A stretch of 44,188 bases of DNA from Bacteroidales bacterium. Its GTDB lineage: Bacteria > Bacteroidota > Bacteroidia > Bacteroidales > VadinHA17. Below, piece by piece: positions 12,642 through 35,414 of this stretch (within the stretch, counting starts at the first letter, position 1; every line of letters begins with the position of its first letter). The notes below the pieces were generated by a model that saw only the letters and a list, made by a program, of their open reading frames with translations, was not told where the DNA came from and made no database searches. The stretch lies in assembly GCA_003152835.1 (NCBI GenBank), contig PMBC01000195.1, positions 1-44,188 of the forward strand, in the 5' to 3' direction. The translations under genes were made by a program, and so were the position numbers.

Positions 12642-14057
12642 ATGGCAAGTCTCAAGTTTCTATTGGGTTTGATCCCGTCAACTGCTAAAATCGAACAGGC
12701 CGAGAAGGCTCTGACAACTGAATTTGACAAGCTCAGTGCTTTCGCCGGGTCAGATACCCTGAAAAAATTCACGGAACTAAAGGAATTAGTCACATCATCC
12801 TCATTCAATCAGAAAAAGAAAGAGATTGAATCCTTAAGCTTCAAGGGTTCTGAGGAGTATGCCAGGGAGAAAGAGTTTCTTTCTCTCCAGAAAGCAAAGG
12901 ATATAGTACTCTATTTCGGAACTATCGGCGGATCGTCCCTGAAGAAATTCCAGGAACTTGACGGATCTGAAAAAATTAAAGGATATGAATCCCTTGAAAA
13001 GCTTGTCCAGTCCCTGGAGTTCAGGCAAAAAGCAAAAGCAAAAGATTTCAGGGGGTCAGATGACGACAAGAAGCTCCAGGAATTCAACAGGCTTAAAACA
13101 AGTTCAGAGATTAAGGAATATTACGCCTTTAAAAAATCGAAGGAGTATTCGAACTTCCTGAATACCGATGGATCAACCCGCCTTGCCAGGTATAATGAAC
13201 TTAAGGAATATGTCGCTACTCCGGAATTCAAGGAAAAGAAAAACTATCTCCTCGATAAAAAAAGATTTGAAAAGAACGATATGTTCAAGAAGCTTCAGGA
13301 GTTCGACAAGCTGAAGAAGGATGAGGATATTCTATGGTACTTCAAAGTGAAGGATTCAAATAAATTTGATATTCTCAAGAACCGGGAGCTTACTTTCAGT
13401 GATGAATTTGACGGAGATAAGCTTGATGCAAAAATATGGCTTACAAACTATTACTGGGGTGATAAGATGCTGCACGATAATTATTCCGTTGAGAATGACC
13501 TTCAGGCTTATACCGAAAAAGATAATTTCGAGATAAGGAACAGCCTCCTCAAGATCATTACAAAACCTCAGAAAGTCCAGGGTAAAGTATGGACCAGTAC
13601 CGACGGTTTCAAATCAAAGGAATTCGCTTTCACTTCCGGGCTTATTAATACCGGGAAAAGCTTTAGGCAGAAATACGGAACATTCAGTGCAAAGATCAAG
13701 CTTGGCGATCCTTCAGCCAAATCAGCATTCTGGATGCTTGCCAATAAGATAACCCCGCATATTGATGTATGCCGGACAGCAAACGGCAAGGTGGCAGCAA
13801 ACTATTTTGCATCTGTCAATAAAAAGGTAAAGGGATCCGTCGCGGCAAAATTCGCAAATGATTTCTACATTTTCACCCTCGAGTGGAGCGCCGATAAGCT
13901 GGTATGGAAAATCAACGATACCGTCCTCCTTACACAGACATCAGATGTTCCGCAGGAGCCGATGTATATCCTGTTTTCCGGGGGTCTGGACAAACCTGTT
14001 AACAGCATGATCGCAATGGAGATCGACTGGGTGAGAGTATATCAGCCGAAGAAATGA
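12642..14057 (+). CDS. Helical-repeat protein with C-terminal GH16-like domain lacking catalytic glutamates
   Basis: This 471-aa protein has no evident signal peptide, so it is probably cytoplasmic. Residues 38-247 are Lys/Glu-rich helical repeats built on a pattern like LKKFTELKELV or LKKLQEFDKL, with recurring EFxxKK and IxxYF steps (about six short units, or three longer ones starting near 39, 99 and 180). Residues 248-468 fold like GH16: LTFSDEFDGDKLD, ENDLQAYTEKDNFEI, SAFWMLA and MEIDWVRVYQP. Active GH16 enzymes have ExDxxE; here the site reads HIDVCR (373-378), so both glutamates are replaced. It is most likely a non-catalytic carbohydrate- or protein-binding protein. Its gene stands alone, bounded 3' by a palindromic repeat that includes its stop codon. 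Confidence 0.82.
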   Translation: MASLKFLLGLIPSTAKIEQAEKALTTEFDKLSAFAGSDTLKKFTELKELVTSSSFNQKKKEIESLSFKGSEEYAREKEFLSLQKAKDIVLYFGTIGGSSLKKFQELDGSEKIKGYESLEKLVQSLEFRQKAKAKDFRGSDDDKKLQEFNRLKTSSEIKEYYAFKKSKEYSNFLNTDGSTRLARYNELKEYVATPEFKEKKNYLLDKKRFEKNDMFKKLQEFDKLKKDEDILWYFKVKDSNKFDILKNRELTFSDEFDGDKLDAKIWLTNYYWGDKMLHDNYSVENDLQAYTEKDNFEIRNSLLKIITKPQKVQGKVWTSTDGFKSKEFAFTSGLINTGKSFRQKYGTFSAKIKLGDPSAKSAFWMLANKITPHIDVCRTANGKVAANYFASVNKKVKGSVAAKFANDFYIFTLEWSADKLVWKINDTVLLTQTSDVPQEPMYILFSGGLDKPVNSMIAMEIDWVRVYQPKK

Positions 14058-14183
14058 CCCCCGTCCGTCAGCCGACGGACTGCCCCCTGAAGGGGGCCTA
14101 ATACTCAGATATCTAATTAATTATCTTATGTTTAGGATTTAACCCCCCTTTAGGGGGGAAGACGCTTAGCGTCTGGGGGGTCA
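14055..14183. repeat. 129-bp composite palindromic repeat
   Basis: The element runs from TGACCCCC to GGGGGGTCA, which are inverted ends. Inside are four perfect hairpins. GTCCGTC (14063-14069) pairs with GACGGAC (14074-14080). GCCCCC (14082-14087) pairs with GGGGGC (14092-14097). CCCCCC (14143-14148) pairs with GGGGGG (14153-14158). AGACGC (14160-14165) pairs with GCGTCT (14169-14174). The GH16-like gene's TGA stop (14055-14057) is the element's first triplet. The CCCCTGAAGGGG core also occurs at the fabH end. It fits a mobile or amplified intergenic repeat, and could terminate transcription. Confidence 0.72.
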
Positions 14184-14235
14184 GCTTTCTGTAACTTTTC
14201 AGGTTTTCAACCGTCTTTGCATTGTAATATGTTTT

Positions 14236-14721
14236 ATGACAGTCAGGGAATACAACATAGCTGTGGAGAAATTTGCCGATGCCGTGTATCGTTTTATCCG
14301 TGCTGACCTGAAGGATGATGACCGGGCAAATGATATCGTGCAGGACAGCTATGAAAAGCTCTGGCGTCATGTTGCTGAAATAGAATACAGAGTCGTAAAA
14401 TCATGGCTTTTTTCGACAGCCTATCATGCTATGATCGACTTAATCAGAAAGGAAAAAAGAGTTACCCAGCTCACGGAGTCGCATGAAGCAGATCTGTTAA
14501 TTAATTCACAGTACTCCGACCTGAATGAAATCCTTCATGCTGCGCTGTCGCGGCTTCCTGAACAGCAGAAATCGGTTGTCCTCCTTCGTGACTATGAAGG
14601 ATACAGCTATGAAGAAATTGGAGAAATAACCGGCCTTACTGAAGCACAGGTTAAAATTAATATTTACAGGGGCAGAATTGCCCTTAAGAGTTACATTGGA
14701 AAGATTGAAACTGTAATATAG
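14236..14721 (+). CDS. ECF (sigma-70 family) RNA polymerase sigma factor
   Basis: This 161-aa protein has region 2 (about 15-80; ANDIVQDSYEKLWRHV and VKSWLFSTAYHAMIDLIR) and region 4 (about 100-152; LSRLPEQQKSVVLLRDYEGY, YEEIGEITGLTEAQVKINIY). There is no region 1 or 3, as in ECF sigma factors. It recognises special promoters in response to an external or envelope signal. It is followed after 2 bp by a membrane protein with anti-sigma-like modules and then a beta-barrel gene. A TAACTTTT box at 14192-14199 is a weak -7 candidate. Confidence 0.94.
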   Translation: MTVREYNIAVEKFADAVYRFIRADLKDDDRANDIVQDSYEKLWRHVAEIEYRVVKSWLFSTAYHAMIDLIRKEKRVTQLTESHEADLLINSQYSDLNEILHAALSRLPEQQKSVVLLRDYEGYSYEEIGEITGLTEAQVKINIYRGRIALKSYIGKIETVI

Positions 14722-14723
14722 TC

Positions 14724-15806
14724 ATGAAGCCCGACAGATCAAACTACGAAACATGGTTAATCGACTGGCTCGACGGAACTCTCACCGCTCATCAGACGGA
14801 CGAGCTCATGGCTTTTCTAGATGAGAACCCTGATATCAGGGAAGAAGCAGATTCACTCATGCTTGCCAGGATCTCTCCTGCCAGAGATTCTTTTCCCGGG
14901 AAGGAAAAACTGCAGAGATCTTCTGCAGATATAATAACCTCACAGGTAGAATATCTATCTGCTGCATACCTTGAAGGTGATCTCTCAGCGGAGCAGGAAG
15001 CTGACCTGAGACAAAATATAGAAATGAACCCGAAGAACAGGATCATCTTCGACAAAATCCAGAGAACAAAGCTTGCGCCACCCGTGGTTCATTACATGAA
15101 CAAAAGCAGCCTTAAGAGAATTACACTAGCTGCAAAAATTGCAAGGTTCTCAGTGATCGGACTAAGTGCCGCAGCAGTTATATTATTTCTGATATTTTAC
15201 CATATGTTACTCCCGCGGCCTGCTGCAGAAAACAGCGCTGTGGTTGCTGCCACGACACCGGTAACGATTTACGTGCATCAGCCCGTTATCTTCAGTGACA
15301 GGAATAAAATTCAAACCCCGTCAAGGGCTGAAAAGATAGGTGTGAAAGCCGGCACGGATATTCTTTCTCCTGCAGCCATCCAAACTGCTGCTCTGCAAAA
15401 TTTACAGGATTCAATGGCAACTATGAAAAGAGCAGAGGGACCGGAGTCTATAGCCTTCACCAGCATGCCGGTAACCAGTATGCGCTCAGAAGATACTGAC
15501 CCGTCCCTGATTGCTTCAACAATAAATTATGCGGAACCTGTTTACGATGATGAAAGAAGCCGGCTAAGCAGGTTCATTGCCAGAACTTTCCGCGAAAAGA
15601 TCCTCAAAGAAAAGAAGATCAGCGATGAGCCCTTGAAAACGTATGAGGTTGCTGAGGCAGGTATCGACGGGCTTAACAAGCTGCTTGGCTGGCAGATGGC
15701 TCTCGTAAAAACAAATGATGAAGCAGGGGAACTGAAATCTGTTTATTTCAGTTCGAAAGCACTCAAATTCAATGCACCTGTCAGAAAAACTACTGCATCG
15801 CAGTAA
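14724..15806 (+). CDS. Probable transmembrane anti-sigma factor
   Basis: This 360-aa protein begins with two similar short modules. Residues 8-43 contain WLIDWLDGTLTAHQTDEL and FLDENPDIREE. Residues 75-110 contain AAYLEGDLSAEQEADLRQ and MNPKNR. This YLDG...NP pattern is common in anti-sigma factors of Bacteroidota. A single membrane helix follows (about 143-163), then a roughly 195-aa C-terminal region likely outside the inner membrane. It starts 2 bp after the sigma gene, implying co-translation and direct control of that sigma factor. No zinc-binding HCC motif is present. The binding function is inferred, not proven. Confidence 0.75.
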   Translation: MKPDRSNYETWLIDWLDGTLTAHQTDELMAFLDENPDIREEADSLMLARISPARDSFPGKEKLQRSSADIITSQVEYLSAAYLEGDLSAEQEADLRQNIEMNPKNRIIFDKIQRTKLAPPVVHYMNKSSLKRITLAAKIARFSVIGLSAAAVILFLIFYHMLLPRPAAENSAVVAATTPVTIYVHQPVIFSDRNKIQTPSRAEKIGVKAGTDILSPAAIQTAALQNLQDSMATMKRAEGPESIAFTSMPVTSMRSEDTDPSLIASTINYAEPVYDDERSRLSRFIARTFREKILKEKKISDEPLKTYEVAEAGIDGLNKLLGWQMALVKTNDEAGELKSVYFSSKALKFNAPVRKTTASQ

Positions 15807-15858
15807 CTTTTTCCCGCCCTCCACCGTCACAGCATAAGAAACATTTAAATTGATAATC

Positions 15859-16809
15859 ATGAAAAAAATTGTAATAACAGCGCTGCTTACGATTATACTT
15901 ATTCAGGGCTTCAGCCAGGTGTCTTCGGCTGAGAAAAAAGGAGACGGGAAAGCAGCAACTGCCGCAGATTCAAACAGCATAACAAAGGTGGTAGTCGGCC
16001 AGGACAGGCTTGCAATTGCAGATAATGGCAATAAAATTAATGTCAGGGTTGGCAACAGGGGATTGACTATCCTTGAATCGCTCGAAGGGAAACTCCCAAA
16101 AATTGAGGTTGAAAAATATAATGACAATTCATCATTTTATAAAGATCAGGATGATAATAAGGATTCAAAGGGACACAGAAGAACCCATTTCAGGGGTCAC
16201 TGGGCAGGATGCGAAATCGGATTTAACAATTATGTGACCGACAATTACAACTTTTCGCTGCCGGCCGGGATTGAATATATGTCGCTTAATTCCGGGAAAG
16301 CGATGAACTTCAACCTAAATTTTTCGCAGCTGAGCATAGGACTTGGAAGGCATATTGGTTTTGTGACCGGCCTCGGCCTTAACTGGAACAACTACAGGTT
16401 CGACGGGAATAATAACATTCTGAAAGATGCCAGTGGTAATATTATTAATGATCCTTATAGCGAAACGCTTAAAAAATCAAAGCTGGCTACCCTCTATCTT
16501 GACCTCCCGGTTCTGTTCGAGGTCCAGATCCCGACCGATCACCAGCGTATTAACATTGCTGCAGGACCTATAGGCGCTATCAAGATAAGCTCTCATTCCA
16601 AAATGGTATTTGAAAACGGCGACAAGGTAAAATCTGACGGCGATTTCAGCCTCAATATGCTTCGGTACGGGGCAACTGCACGTATAGGGTACGAGAATTT
16701 TGAGATCTATGGCACCTACTATATGACTCCTCTTTTCAAACATGGAAAAGGTCCGGGAGGAGTTGATCTCTTTCCGTTTGAGATCGGACTTGCATTCTCA
16801 ATTAACTAA
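15859..16809 (+). CDS. Outer-membrane beta-barrel family protein
   Basis: This protein of 316 aa has a signal peptide (MKKIVITALLTIILIQGFSQ) and a low-complexity linker with Asp/Asn-rich sequence (DNKDSKGHRRTHFRGHW). Its C-terminal half of alternating aromatic strands (NFNLNFSQLSIGLGRHIGF, LYLDLPVLFEVQI, IGYENFEIYGTYY) is typical of PorT/OmpA-like barrels. The ATG at 15859 is preferred over a TTG three codons upstream. It follows the anti-sigma gene by 52 bp and is probably part of the same regulon. Confidence 0.82.
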   Translation: MKKIVITALLTIILIQGFSQVSSAEKKGDGKAATAADSNSITKVVVGQDRLAIADNGNKINVRVGNRGLTILESLEGKLPKIEVEKYNDNSSFYKDQDDNKDSKGHRRTHFRGHWAGCEIGFNNYVTDNYNFSLPAGIEYMSLNSGKAMNFNLNFSQLSIGLGRHIGFVTGLGLNWNNYRFDGNNNILKDASGNIINDPYSETLKKSKLATLYLDLPVLFEVQIPTDHQRINIAAGPIGAIKISSHSKMVFENGDKVKSDGDFSLNMLRYGATARIGYENFEIYGTYYMTPLFKHGKGPGGVDLFPFEIGLAFSIN

Positions 16810-29185: not shown

Positions 29186-29872
29186 TCAGCCCCTTTTTGA
29201 AATGCTTTCAAGCTTCTCTATGTCAACTATTTCAATTGTCTTTCCGAACACCCTGATGATTCCGTCACGTTTGAAATCGGATAGAGTCCGGATGACATTG
29301 GCTGTGCTCATGCCGATATAATCGGCGATCTCTTTCCTTGAGACTGGAAGGTCGAAGACCCTTGAGTTATAAATATCCTTCGTGAAATAAAGCAGGATGA
29401 AGGCGACTCTGCCAATAAGGTTTTTCTGCCTTATATCAAGAGTCTGACTAATTATCTTATCGTTGATTTTTGATATTTTTGTTAAAAGCCCCATTGCAAA
29501 TCCCCCGTTTTTCAGGAAGAGAGCCTTGATAAAATCCAGGTCAACTGTGCACACAACAGAATCTTCAACGGCAGAGACAGAATACCGGTAACGATCTTCA
29601 GAAAAGATATTCATATTGCTTACGAACTCGAAAGGCTTGGTAATTGTAATTACCTGTTCGTCGCCCGAAGGAGTTCGTCTGTAAAGCTTAACCAGGCCGC
29701 TCTTGAGATACTTGAAGCTTGTGATCTTCTCTCCCTCGTGATTTATTATTTCGCCTTTCCTGAAAGCCTGTTCCTCCTTATTATTGCATAATTCCCGTAC
29801 AGTTGCTTCGTCAAGATAAGCAAATACGATGTCTCTGAATTCGCAGTTCTCACATATACAATTTGAATTCAT
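29186..29872 (-). CDS. Crp/Fnr-family transcription regulator, FNR-like
   Basis: This 228-aa regulator has a cyclic-nucleotide-binding-like beta-roll domain (about 20-140; FRKGEIINHEGE, GDEQVITITKPFEFV), a dimer helix and a C-terminal HTH (about 175-205; VSRKEIADYIGMSTANVIRT). Cysteines at 5, 7 and 10 (CICENC) and Cys108 in SVVCTVDLDF line up with the FNR cluster: Cys108 matches the position of E. coli FNR Cys122. An oxygen-sensing Fe-S cluster is plausible. Cys spacing at the N-terminus is tighter than in FNR. The recognition helix (STANVIR) lacks the Glu and Ser of E. coli FNR (E209, S212). It faces the GH127 gene divergently. Confidence 0.88.
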   Translation of the reverse strand: MNSNCICENCEFRDIVFAYLDEATVRELCNNKEEQAFRKGEIINHEGEKITSFKYLKSGLVKLYRRTPSGDEQVITITKPFEFVSNMNIFSEDRYRYSVSAVEDSVVCTVDLDFIKALFLKNGGFAMGLLTKISKINDKIISQTLDIRQKNLIGRVAFILLYFTKDIYNSRVFDLPVSRKEIADYIGMSTANVIRTLSDFKRDGIIRVFGKTIEIVDIEKLESISKRG

Positions 29873-29897
29873 TTCGTTCCCGGGTGAAGATTTTCTG

Positions 29898-29905
29898 CAA
29901 ATTTA
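29898..29905 (-). promoter_or_regulatory. Candidate -7 box for the FNR-like regulator
   Basis: The minus strand reads TAAATTTG (TAnnTTTG), about 26 nt before the regulator ATG (29870-29872). Together with the plus-strand box at 29931 it makes back-to-back promoters only 25 bp apart. Confidence 0.5.
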
Positions 29906-29930
29906 CATTTTCCATTGCAGAAACTAATGA

Positions 29931-29938
29931 TATCTTTG
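29931..29938 (+). promoter_or_regulatory. Candidate -7 box for the GH127 gene
   Basis: TATCTTTG matches TAnnTTTG and gives a start near 29945, about 44 nt before the ATG at 29989. It is downstream of an in-frame ATG at 29863, which is therefore unlikely to be used. Confidence 0.5.
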
Positions 29939-29988
29939 AAATAGTAATTAGTGTCAATCTTACACTTAATCCTAAAAACCCATCTGTC

Positions 29989-32346
29989 ATGCTGAAAATT
30001 GGGAAGGTTTTATTACCAGGAATTATTATTTTCAATTCGCTTTCCGGTTGCACAACACATTATGAAACCACTGTCAAAACAGGCGGTCCTGAAATCGTGT
30101 CATTCAGAGCTCTTCCCTTCTCTCTTTCTGACGTTAAGCTTCTCAGCGGGCCATTTCTGCATGCAACTGAATTGGATATGAATACCCTGTTAAGCTATGA
30201 ACCCGACAGGCTCCTTTCAAAGTTTTATTCCGAAGCCGGACTCAAGCCCAAAGCCGAACACTATATGGGATGGGAAGATGAGACAATTGCAGGGCATAGT
30301 CTTGGTCATTACCTCAGCGCATGTTCGATGATGTACCAGACCACCGGCGACAAGAGGTTCCTCGAGAGAGTCAATTATATCGTTGACGAGATGAAAAAAC
30401 TTCAGGATACTGACGGGGATGGCTATCTGGGGGCATTCCCGCATGGCAAAAAAATCCTTGAAGAAGAGGTCGCAAAAGGGAACATCCGGTCGCAGGGATT
30501 TGACCTTAATGGTATTTGGGTTCCGTTTTATACTGAACACAAAATGATGGCCGGGCTGAGGGACGCTTATCATCTTTGCGGAAACAACACTGCGCTTGAA
30601 GTTGAGAGGCGTTTTGCCGACTGGCTTGACGGTATTGTGTTTCCGCTCACTGATGATCAGGTGCAAAACATGCTGCGATGTGAACATGGTGGAATAAGTG
30701 AAACGCTTGCCGACCTCTATGCAGACACAAAGGACGAAAAGTACATGAGACTCTCAAAAATATTCTATCAGAAAGCCGTACTCGACCCGCTCAAGGAGGG
30801 AAAAGACATTCTGCCCGGGAGACATTGTAATACAAATATCCCCAAGCTTATTGCTTTGTCGCGCCTTTATGAACTGACTGGCGATACGTCGGACAGAAAA
30901 GCTGCAGAATTTTTCTGGAATACGGTAGTATATCATCATTCTTATGTTACCGGGGGAAATGGCAATAATGAATACTTCGGCCCTGCAGACAAACTAAAGG
31001 ATCAGCTGGGAGAGAATACCACAGAATCATGCAATGTGTACAATATGCTTAAGCTCACCGAACACCTCTTTGAATGGGAAGCCTCGGCCAATGTCGCTGA
31101 CTTTTACGAGAGAGCGCTCTTTAATCATATACTTTCGACTCAAAACCCTGTCGACGGACATGTCGTGTACAACTTGTCGCTCGATATGGGCGGGTTTAAG
31201 TATTTCCAGGATCCGCTCGACTTCACCTGCTGCATTGGCACGGGAATGGAAAATCACTCTAAATACGGAAGAAACATTTTTTACCATAACGACAATGAAC
31301 TATTCCTCTTTCAGTTTATCGCCTCAGAGCTAAGCTGGAAAGAAAAGGGAATTGTAGTAACACAGAATACAACTTATCCCGAAGAGCAGGGGACCACCCT
31401 GGAATTCAAATGCGATAAGCCCCTGAAGCTTACGCTGCAGGTCCGCTATCCTTACTGGGCAACCACAGGGATCAGGATAAGTGTGAACGGGAAAGAAATA
31501 CATATCAAAGGAGATCCCGGAAGCTTTATCCCTGTTGAGAGAACCTGGAAAACCGGAGATAAAGTCGAAGTAAAACTGCCATTTACGTTGCGTCTCGAGT
31601 CAATGCCTGACGACAGCAGCCGGGTGGCAGTTATGTATGGCCCGCTTGTTATGGCCGGAGACCTGGGTCCTTTGAAAGATTCCGCCTCAAACGATGCCAT
31701 GTATGTACCGGTCCTGATGACAGAAAAGAGGGATCCCGCATCATGGATGAAGCCTGTCGATGGAAAGCTAAACACGTTTGTGACTGTTAATGCCGGAAGG
31801 CCACGCGATGTTGAAATGAGACCATTATATACTTTTTATGACAGGCGTTATTCGGTTTTCTGGGATATGTTTACCGAAGAAGGATGGGCTGCAAGGCAGG
31901 CTGATTACAAAGCTGCGCAAGAGCAGATGAAACAAATAAAAGAAGCTACAATAGATTTTGTAAGGCCCGGGGAGATGCAACCAGAGCGCGATCATAGCTT
32001 CAGGGGTGAAAAAACCACGCCCGGAAGTTTTAAGGAACGTGCAAACAGGGAATCGCGGGGAGGATGGTTTTCATTCGTTTTGAAAGTGAACGGAAATATC
32101 CCAAATGCACTGGCTGTTGAATACTGGGGAGGATTTCCCGGGGCAAAAACATTCGATATTCTTGTTAATGACAAGCTTATTGCTGCTGAAAATATCACAA
32201 ATAAAAAAGACGGGCAGTTCATTATGGTTCAATACGATATCCCCCGGGAAATAACTAAAGGGAAATCAAGGGTGACTGTGAAATTCCAGGCTCATCCCGG
32301 TAATATGGCAGGGCCCGTTTTCGGGATAAGAACGATTAAAAAATAA
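29989..32346 (+). CDS. GH127-family glycoside hydrolase, lipoprotein
   Basis: This protein of 785 aa begins with a lipoprotein signal whose lipobox is LSGC (Cys21). It is probably anchored facing the periplasm or cell surface. The body matches GH127 (beta-L-arabinofuranosidase family; older DUF1680), a Cys-nucleophile enzyme with bound zinc. Expected residues are present: Glu346 and Cys348 in TESCNVYNM, and Cys414-Cys415 in FTCCIGTGMEN. Glu328 in NNEYFG may be the third acid. The ATG at 29989 is chosen over 29863 because it gives the lipoprotein signal and follows the -7 box. No SusC/SusD neighbours are present, so it is not in an obvious polysaccharide locus. Confidence 0.92.
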   Translation: MLKIGKVLLPGIIIFNSLSGCTTHYETTVKTGGPEIVSFRALPFSLSDVKLLSGPFLHATELDMNTLLSYEPDRLLSKFYSEAGLKPKAEHYMGWEDETIAGHSLGHYLSACSMMYQTTGDKRFLERVNYIVDEMKKLQDTDGDGYLGAFPHGKKILEEEVAKGNIRSQGFDLNGIWVPFYTEHKMMAGLRDAYHLCGNNTALEVERRFADWLDGIVFPLTDDQVQNMLRCEHGGISETLADLYADTKDEKYMRLSKIFYQKAVLDPLKEGKDILPGRHCNTNIPKLIALSRLYELTGDTSDRKAAEFFWNTVVYHHSYVTGGNGNNEYFGPADKLKDQLGENTTESCNVYNMLKLTEHLFEWEASANVADFYERALFNHILSTQNPVDGHVVYNLSLDMGGFKYFQDPLDFTCCIGTGMENHSKYGRNIFYHNDNELFLFQFIASELSWKEKGIVVTQNTTYPEEQGTTLEFKCDKPLKLTLQVRYPYWATTGIRISVNGKEIHIKGDPGSFIPVERTWKTGDKVEVKLPFTLRLESMPDDSSRVAVMYGPLVMAGDLGPLKDSASNDAMYVPVLMTEKRDPASWMKPVDGKLNTFVTVNAGRPRDVEMRPLYTFYDRRYSVFWDMFTEEGWAARQADYKAAQEQMKQIKEATIDFVRPGEMQPERDHSFRGEKTTPGSFKERANRESRGGWFSFVLKVNGNIPNALAVEYWGGFPGAKTFDILVNDKLIAAENITNKKDGQFIMVQYDIPREITKGKSRVTVKFQAHPGNMAGPVFGIRTIKK

Positions 32347-33998: not shown

Positions 33999-35414
33999 AT
34001 GACATCCCTGGCTGCCAACCTTCCGGACGAAAAAGCAATAAAGAGTCAGAAACAGGCCGTTTTGCTGGTTTCTGCTTTTGCGGCTTTCCTGGTGCCTTTT
34101 CTGACATCGGCAATAAATCTTGCCCTCCCGGCAATAGGGAATGATCTTCATGTCAATGCAATAAGCCTCTCGTGGGTCGTAAGCAGTTCCCTGCTGGCAA
34201 CAGCTATCTTTCTTCTCCCTTTTGGAAAACTTAGTGACATTATCGGAAGGAAGAAGATCTTTACTCTCGGAATAATTCTTTTTACTATCGCAACTCTGCT
34301 AATCGTATTCACGAACAGTCTTGCTTCGCTAATCGTGCTGAGGACAATCCAGGGCTTTTCAAGCGCAATGATCTTCGGAACCAGCCTTGCTATTCTCACT
34401 TCCGTTTTCCCTGCAGGTGAGAGAGGCAGGGCTATGGGAATACAAGTGACAGCCACCTATCTAGGCCTTTCCACGGGTCCGGTAATTGGCGGAATATTAA
34501 CTCATTCCCTTGGTTGGAGAAGTATTTTCGTTTTTCTCTTCCTTATCGGCCTTATCAGCATCTATCTTGTTTTCACTAAAATGAAATCTGAATGGGCGGA
34601 TGCACGGGGTGAAACGTTTGACTGGAAAGGATCGGCAATTTACGGAGTTTCACTGTTTGGTGTCATGTACGGTTTTTCAAAGCTTCCTTCTGTCACAGGA
34701 TGGATATTTCTGGCATCGGGGATATCAGCCGGGATAATTTTTCTGCTTTTCGAAAGGAGAATTGAACACCCGGTATTTGATGCAAAGCTTTTTCTTACGA
34801 ACAGGGTGCTGGCATTATCAGGCCTTGCGGCCCTGATAAATTATTCAGCCACAAGCGCGATTGGCTTTTTCATGAGTCTGTACCTTCAGTATGTGAAGGG
34901 GCTTGATCCGCGCAGTGCCGGTCTGATAATGATATCTCAGCCCCTGGCAATGGCACTTCTTTCGCCCATGGCAGGCAAGCTTTCCGACCGGAAGAATCCG
35001 GGGGTGATTGCATCGGTGGGCATGGGAATTACCGGAGCAGGGTTGGTCCTTCTCTGCTTTATTAATGCCACAACACCTTTTTACCTTATCATTTGCCTTC
35101 TTATTCTGATGGGTATCGGTTTCGCCCTTTTTTCTTCACCAAATACAAATGCCATCATGAGCTCTGTCGAAAATCGATACCTCGGAATTGCTTCAGGAGT
35201 AGTGGGAACTATGAGGATGATCGGACAGATGACAAGCATGGGCATTGCCATGATGCTCATCTCGCTTTATATCGGGAAACAGACTATTAATCCCGAAACA
35301 CATACCGGATTCCTGGCAGCCATGAAAACCGGGTTTGTTATTTTCTCTTTCCTGTCACTGTTTGGGGTCTTCGCATCACTAGCAAGGAATAATAAGCTGG
35401 AAAATAAAATTTAG
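33999..35414 (+). CDS. MFS drug-efflux-type transporter (14 TM, DHA2-like)
   Basis: This 471-aa protein has about 14 membrane helices. Conserved signatures are LPFGKLSDIIGRKKIFTLGI (motif A, about 68-87) and GSSPVIG-like TYLGLSTGPVIGGIL (motif C, about 151-165), which is characteristic of exporters (antiporters). An extra pair of helices in the middle places it in the DHA2 group. Substrate cannot be predicted. It follows dtd by 3 bp. Confidence 0.92.
   Translation: MTSLAANLPDEKAIKSQKQAVLLVSAFAAFLVPFLTSAINLALPAIGNDLHVNAISLSWVVSSSLLATAIFLLPFGKLSDIIGRKKIFTLGIILFTIATLLIVFTNSLASLIVLRTIQGFSSAMIFGTSLAILTSVFPAGERGRAMGIQVTATYLGLSTGPVIGGILTHSLGWRSIFVFLFLIGLISIYLVFTKMKSEWADARGETFDWKGSAIYGVSLFGVMYGFSKLPSVTGWIFLASGISAGIIFLLFERRIEHPVFDAKLFLTNRVLALSGLAALINYSATSAIGFFMSLYLQYVKGLDPRSAGLIMISQPLAMALLSPMAGKLSDRKNPGVIASVGMGITGAGLVLLCFINATTPFYLIICLLILMGIGFALFSSPNTNAIMSSVENRYLGIASGVVGTMRMIGQMTSMGIAMMLISLYIGKQTINPETHTGFLAAMKTGFVIFSFLSLFGVFASLARNNKLENKI

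Follow-up and report, generated by a model that had tools for sequence, protein, structure and literature searches.

Repeat-fused GH16 domains without a catalytic pair form a conserved family in Bacteroidales, with a possible scaffold role

Introduction

The GH16 family is best known for secreted enzymes that cut glycans. A stretch of 44,188 nucleotides from a Bacteroidales genome (contig PMBC01000195.1, the whole of which is called the window here) contains a gene for a protein that ends in a GH16-like domain, but carries HIDVCR in place of the catalytic motif ExDxxE, lacks a signal peptide and begins with an array of helical repeats. This locus raises the question of whether such a protein is a broken enzyme, an unusual but active one, or a protein that has taken on another role inside the cell.

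The gene and its product

The gene and the main parts of its product are the following:
12642..14057, forward strand: gene of the pseudo-GH16 repeat protein, ATG start, 471 amino acids, coordinates including the stop codon
12642..12698, forward strand: conserved N-terminal motif M..LK.LLG.IP.T.KIE, residues 1-19, not a signal peptide
12681..13373, forward strand: helical repeat region, about residues 14-244, a series of short helices broken at Ser residues
13374..14054, forward strand: catalytically dead GH16 (beta jelly-roll) domain, residues 245-471, assigned with Pfam, Foldseek and VIA-align 2

An export signal is usual in GH16 enzymes, although it does not strictly define them, and it is absent from this protein. 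Only four open codons (NIYA) lie upstream of the ATG, which leaves no room for a signal peptide, and the N-terminal hydropathy is low, with a 12-residue maximum of 1.62 compared to a median of 2.55 in ordinary GH16 proteins. The original prediction had seen no signal peptide in this frame and had considered that a different start might add one; the first point stands, and the second possibility is ruled out by the same two observations. The start codon context MAxLK is kept among orthologues, and within the N-terminal motif T14 and E18 are invariant and G9 and P12 nearly invariant among 21 members. An N-terminal amphipathic helix for membrane targeting was also considered and rejected, as the hydrophobic moment of 0.36 does not rise above the background of 0.44. 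Judged from these sequence features, a cytoplasmic location would be the simplest reading.

Homology and fold of the C-terminal domain

The C-terminal 227 residues match the GH16 family PF00722 at 6.4e-10 (39.2 bits, curated cut-off 22), in agreement with the original assignment of this domain to GH16. The nearest solved structures are those of laminarinases, with 4dfs found at 3.5e-6 from the single sequence and at 1.4e-19 from the family profile. The domain model matches 3azy at 4.4e-14 in Foldseek and superposes on the 3iln laminarinase with a Z of 23.8 and an rmsd of 2.5 over 205 residues in VIA-align 2. However, the evidence for the fold leans on the sequence matches, because the AF2 full-length model is of low to moderate confidence (pLDDT 59.9) and was built on an alignment that included seven GH16 sequences of viral-contig origin; the predicted fold is thus partly inherited from GH16 enzymes.

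Compared to the GH16 laminarinases and endo-beta-1,3(4)-glucanases (3azx, 4dfs, 3iln, ZgLamA and SCLam), the domain has the same beta jelly-roll at about 21-26 % identity and a Z of about 22-24, but it lacks ExDxxE, the loop before the motif is shortened, the protein is basic and has no signal peptide, and helical repeats stand in front. Since the defining ExDxxE (or ExDxE) was looked for and is absent, the domain can be counted under the GH16 fold but not under the GH16 enzyme family. The C-terminal part also resembles PF03935 (SKN1/KRE6/Sbg1), membrane proteins of fungal beta-glucan synthesis, but this likeness is confined to a weak profile match (E 0.0023, 16.9 bits) under the curated cut-off of 30.

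Loss of the catalytic motif

The site of the catalytic motif was located by alignment with active GH16 domains and by a tally over the family:
13758..13775, forward strand: HIDVCR, residues 373-378, replacing catalytic ExDxxE

HIDVCR aligns residue by residue with laminarinase GEIDIME, so the nucleophile Glu is replaced by His and the acid/base Glu by Arg, while the middle Asp is retained; the replacement of both glutamates had been read correctly from the single sequence. The tally covered loci encoding both repeats and a GH16 domain, with the motif read from a profile alignment, and yielded 106 distinct proteins in which the motif could be read; a few of these may be truncated copies of one and the same gene. 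Intact ExDxxE was found in 0 of these 106 homologues with the same domain pair, in none of which the two catalytic glutamates occur together: 13 retain the first, 4 the second and 89 neither, with no overlap. The first position is occupied by His in 70, Gln in 17 and Glu in 13 proteins and the second by Arg in 49, Lys in 37 and Glu in 4, giving a Lys or Arg at the acid/base position in 86/106; the middle Asp is kept in 80/106. Reducing the set to 64 clusters at 70 % identity leaves this picture unchanged. By comparison, ExDxxE is present in 39 of 41 repeat-free GH16 domains (38 EIDxxE and one EFDIVE), the remaining two being L003, a weak match with an unaligned motif, and L136.

Four divergent members (L155, L156, L157 and L164) have kept the second Glu (SLLE, TLVE, NLLE and TLLE) and lost the first, and members with PEIDIFK show the reverse pattern.

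On sequence grounds, the loss of catalysis in this family is firm. A bacterial GH16 fold without detectable hydrolysis has a precedent in the inactive GH16 beta-1,3-glucanase Rv0315 of Mycobacterium tuberculosis; however, in Rv0315 both Glu-171 and Glu-176 are retained, a signal peptide is present and the inactivity was ascribed to an open groove (PMC4606783).

The helical repeats

The repeat region, of about 245 amino acids, consists of 18 % Lys and 11 % Glu and has a pI of 9.2. Autocorrelation of longer homologues reveals a period of 69-73 amino acids plus a sub-period of 12, and units of the form S..[LI]..[YF]..[FL].. can be recognised by eye. The description of the N-terminal half as a Lys/Glu-rich repeat array thus holds. 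AF2 applied to this region alone predicts about 15 short helices and nothing but helix (pLDDT 74.9). The number of repeats varies: close relatives have 471 or about 540 amino acids, the shortest open frame has 328 and the longest 901, and the length changes in units of ~70 amino acids.

The repeats have no Pfam match in six members and no PDB sequence match up to E 10. Foldseek and VIA-align 2 on the moderately confident repeat model gave no significant fold match (best E 0.26, Z 6.9), which does not prove a new fold. A profile of the repeats alone retrieves just the pseudo-GH16 gene from its own genome and the same gene from 52 of 198 genomes of the order, with no case among these 198 genomes of repeats joined to other domains. 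Repeats and domain are thus obligately paired. One repeat-only frame of 231 amino acids (G200:C112) was considered as a stand-alone repeat protein and is taken as a fragment, since a contig end in the same genome cuts through a copy of the gene (G200:C87).

Distribution, descent and selection

The combination of repeats and a dead GH16 domain occurs in 86/117 genomes of the same family and in 66/247 genomes and 50/166 genera of the order. Outside the order, 392 phylum-wide genomes searched at E 1e-15 contain GH16 domains without the repeats only. The oddity noticed in a single gene, a cytoplasmic GH16-repeat protein, therefore extends to an order-wide conserved family.

A tree was built from 102 GH16 domains; its root is not fixed and its active rows were picked for their EID motif. 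In it, the pseudo-GH16 family forms one side of a single branch with a support of 100/99, with 1 change compared to 30.8 in shuffles. Since the clade sits on one branch, the repeat fusion and the catalytic loss probably happened once. The reading frame is intact in nearly all genomes, and a dN/dS of 0.07-0.15 relative to the two nearest orthologues, in both halves of the protein, indicates purifying selection. Both the catalytic loss and the conservation of the family are well supported. A defence or phage origin of the gene was considered and dropped, as there was no PADLOC match and no convincing PHROG match.

Genomic surroundings

Upstream of the pseudo-GH16 gene lie a methyltransferase-like gene and yidD, on the opposite strand. 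Downstream, a unit at 14236-16809 comprises genes for an ECF sigma factor, for a conserved protein that matches no Pfam family and may be an anti-sigma factor, and for an outer-membrane beta-barrel protein. The ECF sigma factor unit is usually found 3' of the pseudo-GH16 gene within the family, while in five other genomes the housekeeping gene fmt follows it. The gene order is common to family members only, so that no conserved operon partner exists beyond the family and the neighbourhood indicates no partner for the protein.

Between the gene and the ECF unit, positions 14058-14190 are dense in GC-rich palindromes, namely CCCCCTTTAGGGGGG and then gaagacgcttagcgtctgggggg. For CCCCCTTTAGGGGG, 11 exact copies occur in the own genome compared to 0 for a reversed control. 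The palindromes are possibly a REP-like intergenic element or a terminator.

The carbohydrate-related genes in the window are:
29863-32346: GH127 beta-L-arabinofuranosidase with DUF6805, adjoining a CRP-type regulator, with an MFS transporter not far away
33999-35414: MFS transporter

The original prediction had stated that no carbohydrate-uptake genes lie nearby. This is true in so far as none adjoins the pseudo-GH16 gene, but the GH127 and MFS transporter genes lie 16-20 kb off within the window. The compared neighbourhoods contain no conserved sugar genes near the gene. In two related genomes (L111 and L112), a divergently oriented glycogen branching enzyme gene and an alpha-amylase-family gene adjoin upstream.

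The remodelled cleft and possible functions

The cleft was compared between 64 non-redundant pseudo-GH16 clusters and 38 EIDxxE enzymes. The family has lost the conserved Asn 284 and His 409 as well as the WP within GLWPAFW, and the WPxxG loop, the stretch that separates Pro372 from the motif, is missing. Trp 364, 415 and 422 are conserved. Two further elements are specific to the family:
13590..13610, forward strand: loop W317-x4-G322-F323, an insertion relative to active GH16
13662..13670, forward strand: FRQ, residues 341-343

In the inserted loop, W and G are present in 100 % and F in 96 % of the 64 members, at positions that are a gap in 81-84 % of the active enzymes, and the FRQ positions (F 92, R 84 and Q 85 %) are variable in active GH16. 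With the old residues lost and others newly fixed, the old cleft is unlikely to bind beta-glucan in the ordinary way.

The reading somewhat favoured here is that of a cytoplasmic pseudoenzyme, fused to repeats and kept as a non-hydrolytic binding or scaffold protein. In this view, an ancestral glucanase-type GH16 domain lost both the catalytic pair and the signal peptide, acquired an array of short helices by fusion and was retained as a non-hydrolytic binding module. The helical array, with a length in whole units of ~70 amino acids, would probably form a long spacer or a surface for interactions. The basic GH16-fold domain would bind a partner, which could be another protein or, in preference to neutral beta-glucan, an anionic ligand, and the protein would thus act as an adaptor or scaffold inside the cell. 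Binding, the type of ligand and scaffolding are what we infer from these features; a scaffold or adaptor is placed first because repeats and domain are inseparable, the glucan cleft has been dismantled and the repeat length differs by whole units. Of the original proposal, the cytoplasmic, non-catalytic GH16-fold repeat protein stands and a scaffold is possible, while sugar binding in the usual GH16 cleft is opposed by the loss of the cleft residues.

The second reading, placed there because of the charge inversion, takes the partner to be anionic, either a polymer or a ligand (nucleic acid, polyphosphate, phospholipid or nucleotide sugar), bound through the basic domain and the Lys-rich helices. 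The median pI of the domain is 8.84 compared to 4.51 in active relatives, next to 9.16 for the repeats, and the basic residue found at the acid/base site in 86/106 proteins points the same way. However, pI is a coarse measure, and since the active comparison set is secreted, the basic pI may merely accompany a cytoplasmic location. Furthermore, a known nucleic-acid-binding fold was not recognised and the test for a membrane-targeting amphipathic helix came out negative, and this reading seems unlikely.

Somewhat less probable still is an intracellular lectin, in which the GH16 cleft would bind a glycan, such as a storage glucan or an envelope precursor, without cutting it. Insect beta-GRP/GNBP proteins contain a GH16-like domain that lacks the catalytic pair and serves recognition; they share the dead GH16 domain with the family described here, but are secreted, eukaryotic and equipped with another, carbohydrate-binding, N-terminal domain. 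The retained fold, the three conserved tryptophans and the glycogen branching enzyme and amylase-family genes upstream in two related genomes would also suit a lectin, while the loss of the WPxxG loop, WP, Asn 284 and His 409 and the lack of conserved sugar genes nearby speak against it. The laminarinase SCLam holds its glucan via Y52, N53, W129, W139, H163, H169 and W240, among others (PMC7961093), and W139, as judged from its distance to E144, would sit in the loop that is deleted from the pseudo-GH16 family. A link to glycogen by co-occurrence was considered as well but is uninformative, because the glycogen synthase family PF08323 is present in 197/198 genomes of the order.

An active enzyme with displaced catalytic residues is very improbable: the middle Asp persists in 80/106 proteins and one of the two glutamates in 17, but the nucleophile and the acid/base Glu never occur together, cleft residues are lost, and none of the residues newly fixed in the cleft comparison is a carboxylate. 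Finally, a pseudogene or functionless relic, suggested by the lost catalytic motif with its variable sequence, is hardly credible, as it is already contradicted by purifying selection, by the frame kept intact in nearly all genomes and by residues that are invariant across the order.

Implications

That many related bacteria keep the dead form argues that the pseudo-GH16 protein is probably a binding or scaffolding protein and not the product of a broken gene. A broader and more tentative view is that of an undescribed, order-wide group of cytoplasmic GH16 pseudoenzymes in Bacteroidia, in which a formerly secreted glucanase fold would have come to reside in the cytoplasm, with an inverted charge, a cleft remodelled about newly invariant residues and a new class of 12/70-residue helical repeats that differ in length, acting as a ruler-like scaffold or receptor. 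The literature search found no paper on GH16 pseudoenzymes of this repeat kind. The repeats constitute an uncharacterised helical family, and since their length differs between close relatives, the idea of a spacer or ruler is directly testable. Automatic annotation would name these genes beta-glucanases, and carrier genomes may therefore be over-counted as glucan degraders. For the family itself, the finding represents a re-use of a fold, not described in the literature searched: a conserved GH16 clade that has neither an export signal nor catalysis and is still under selection.
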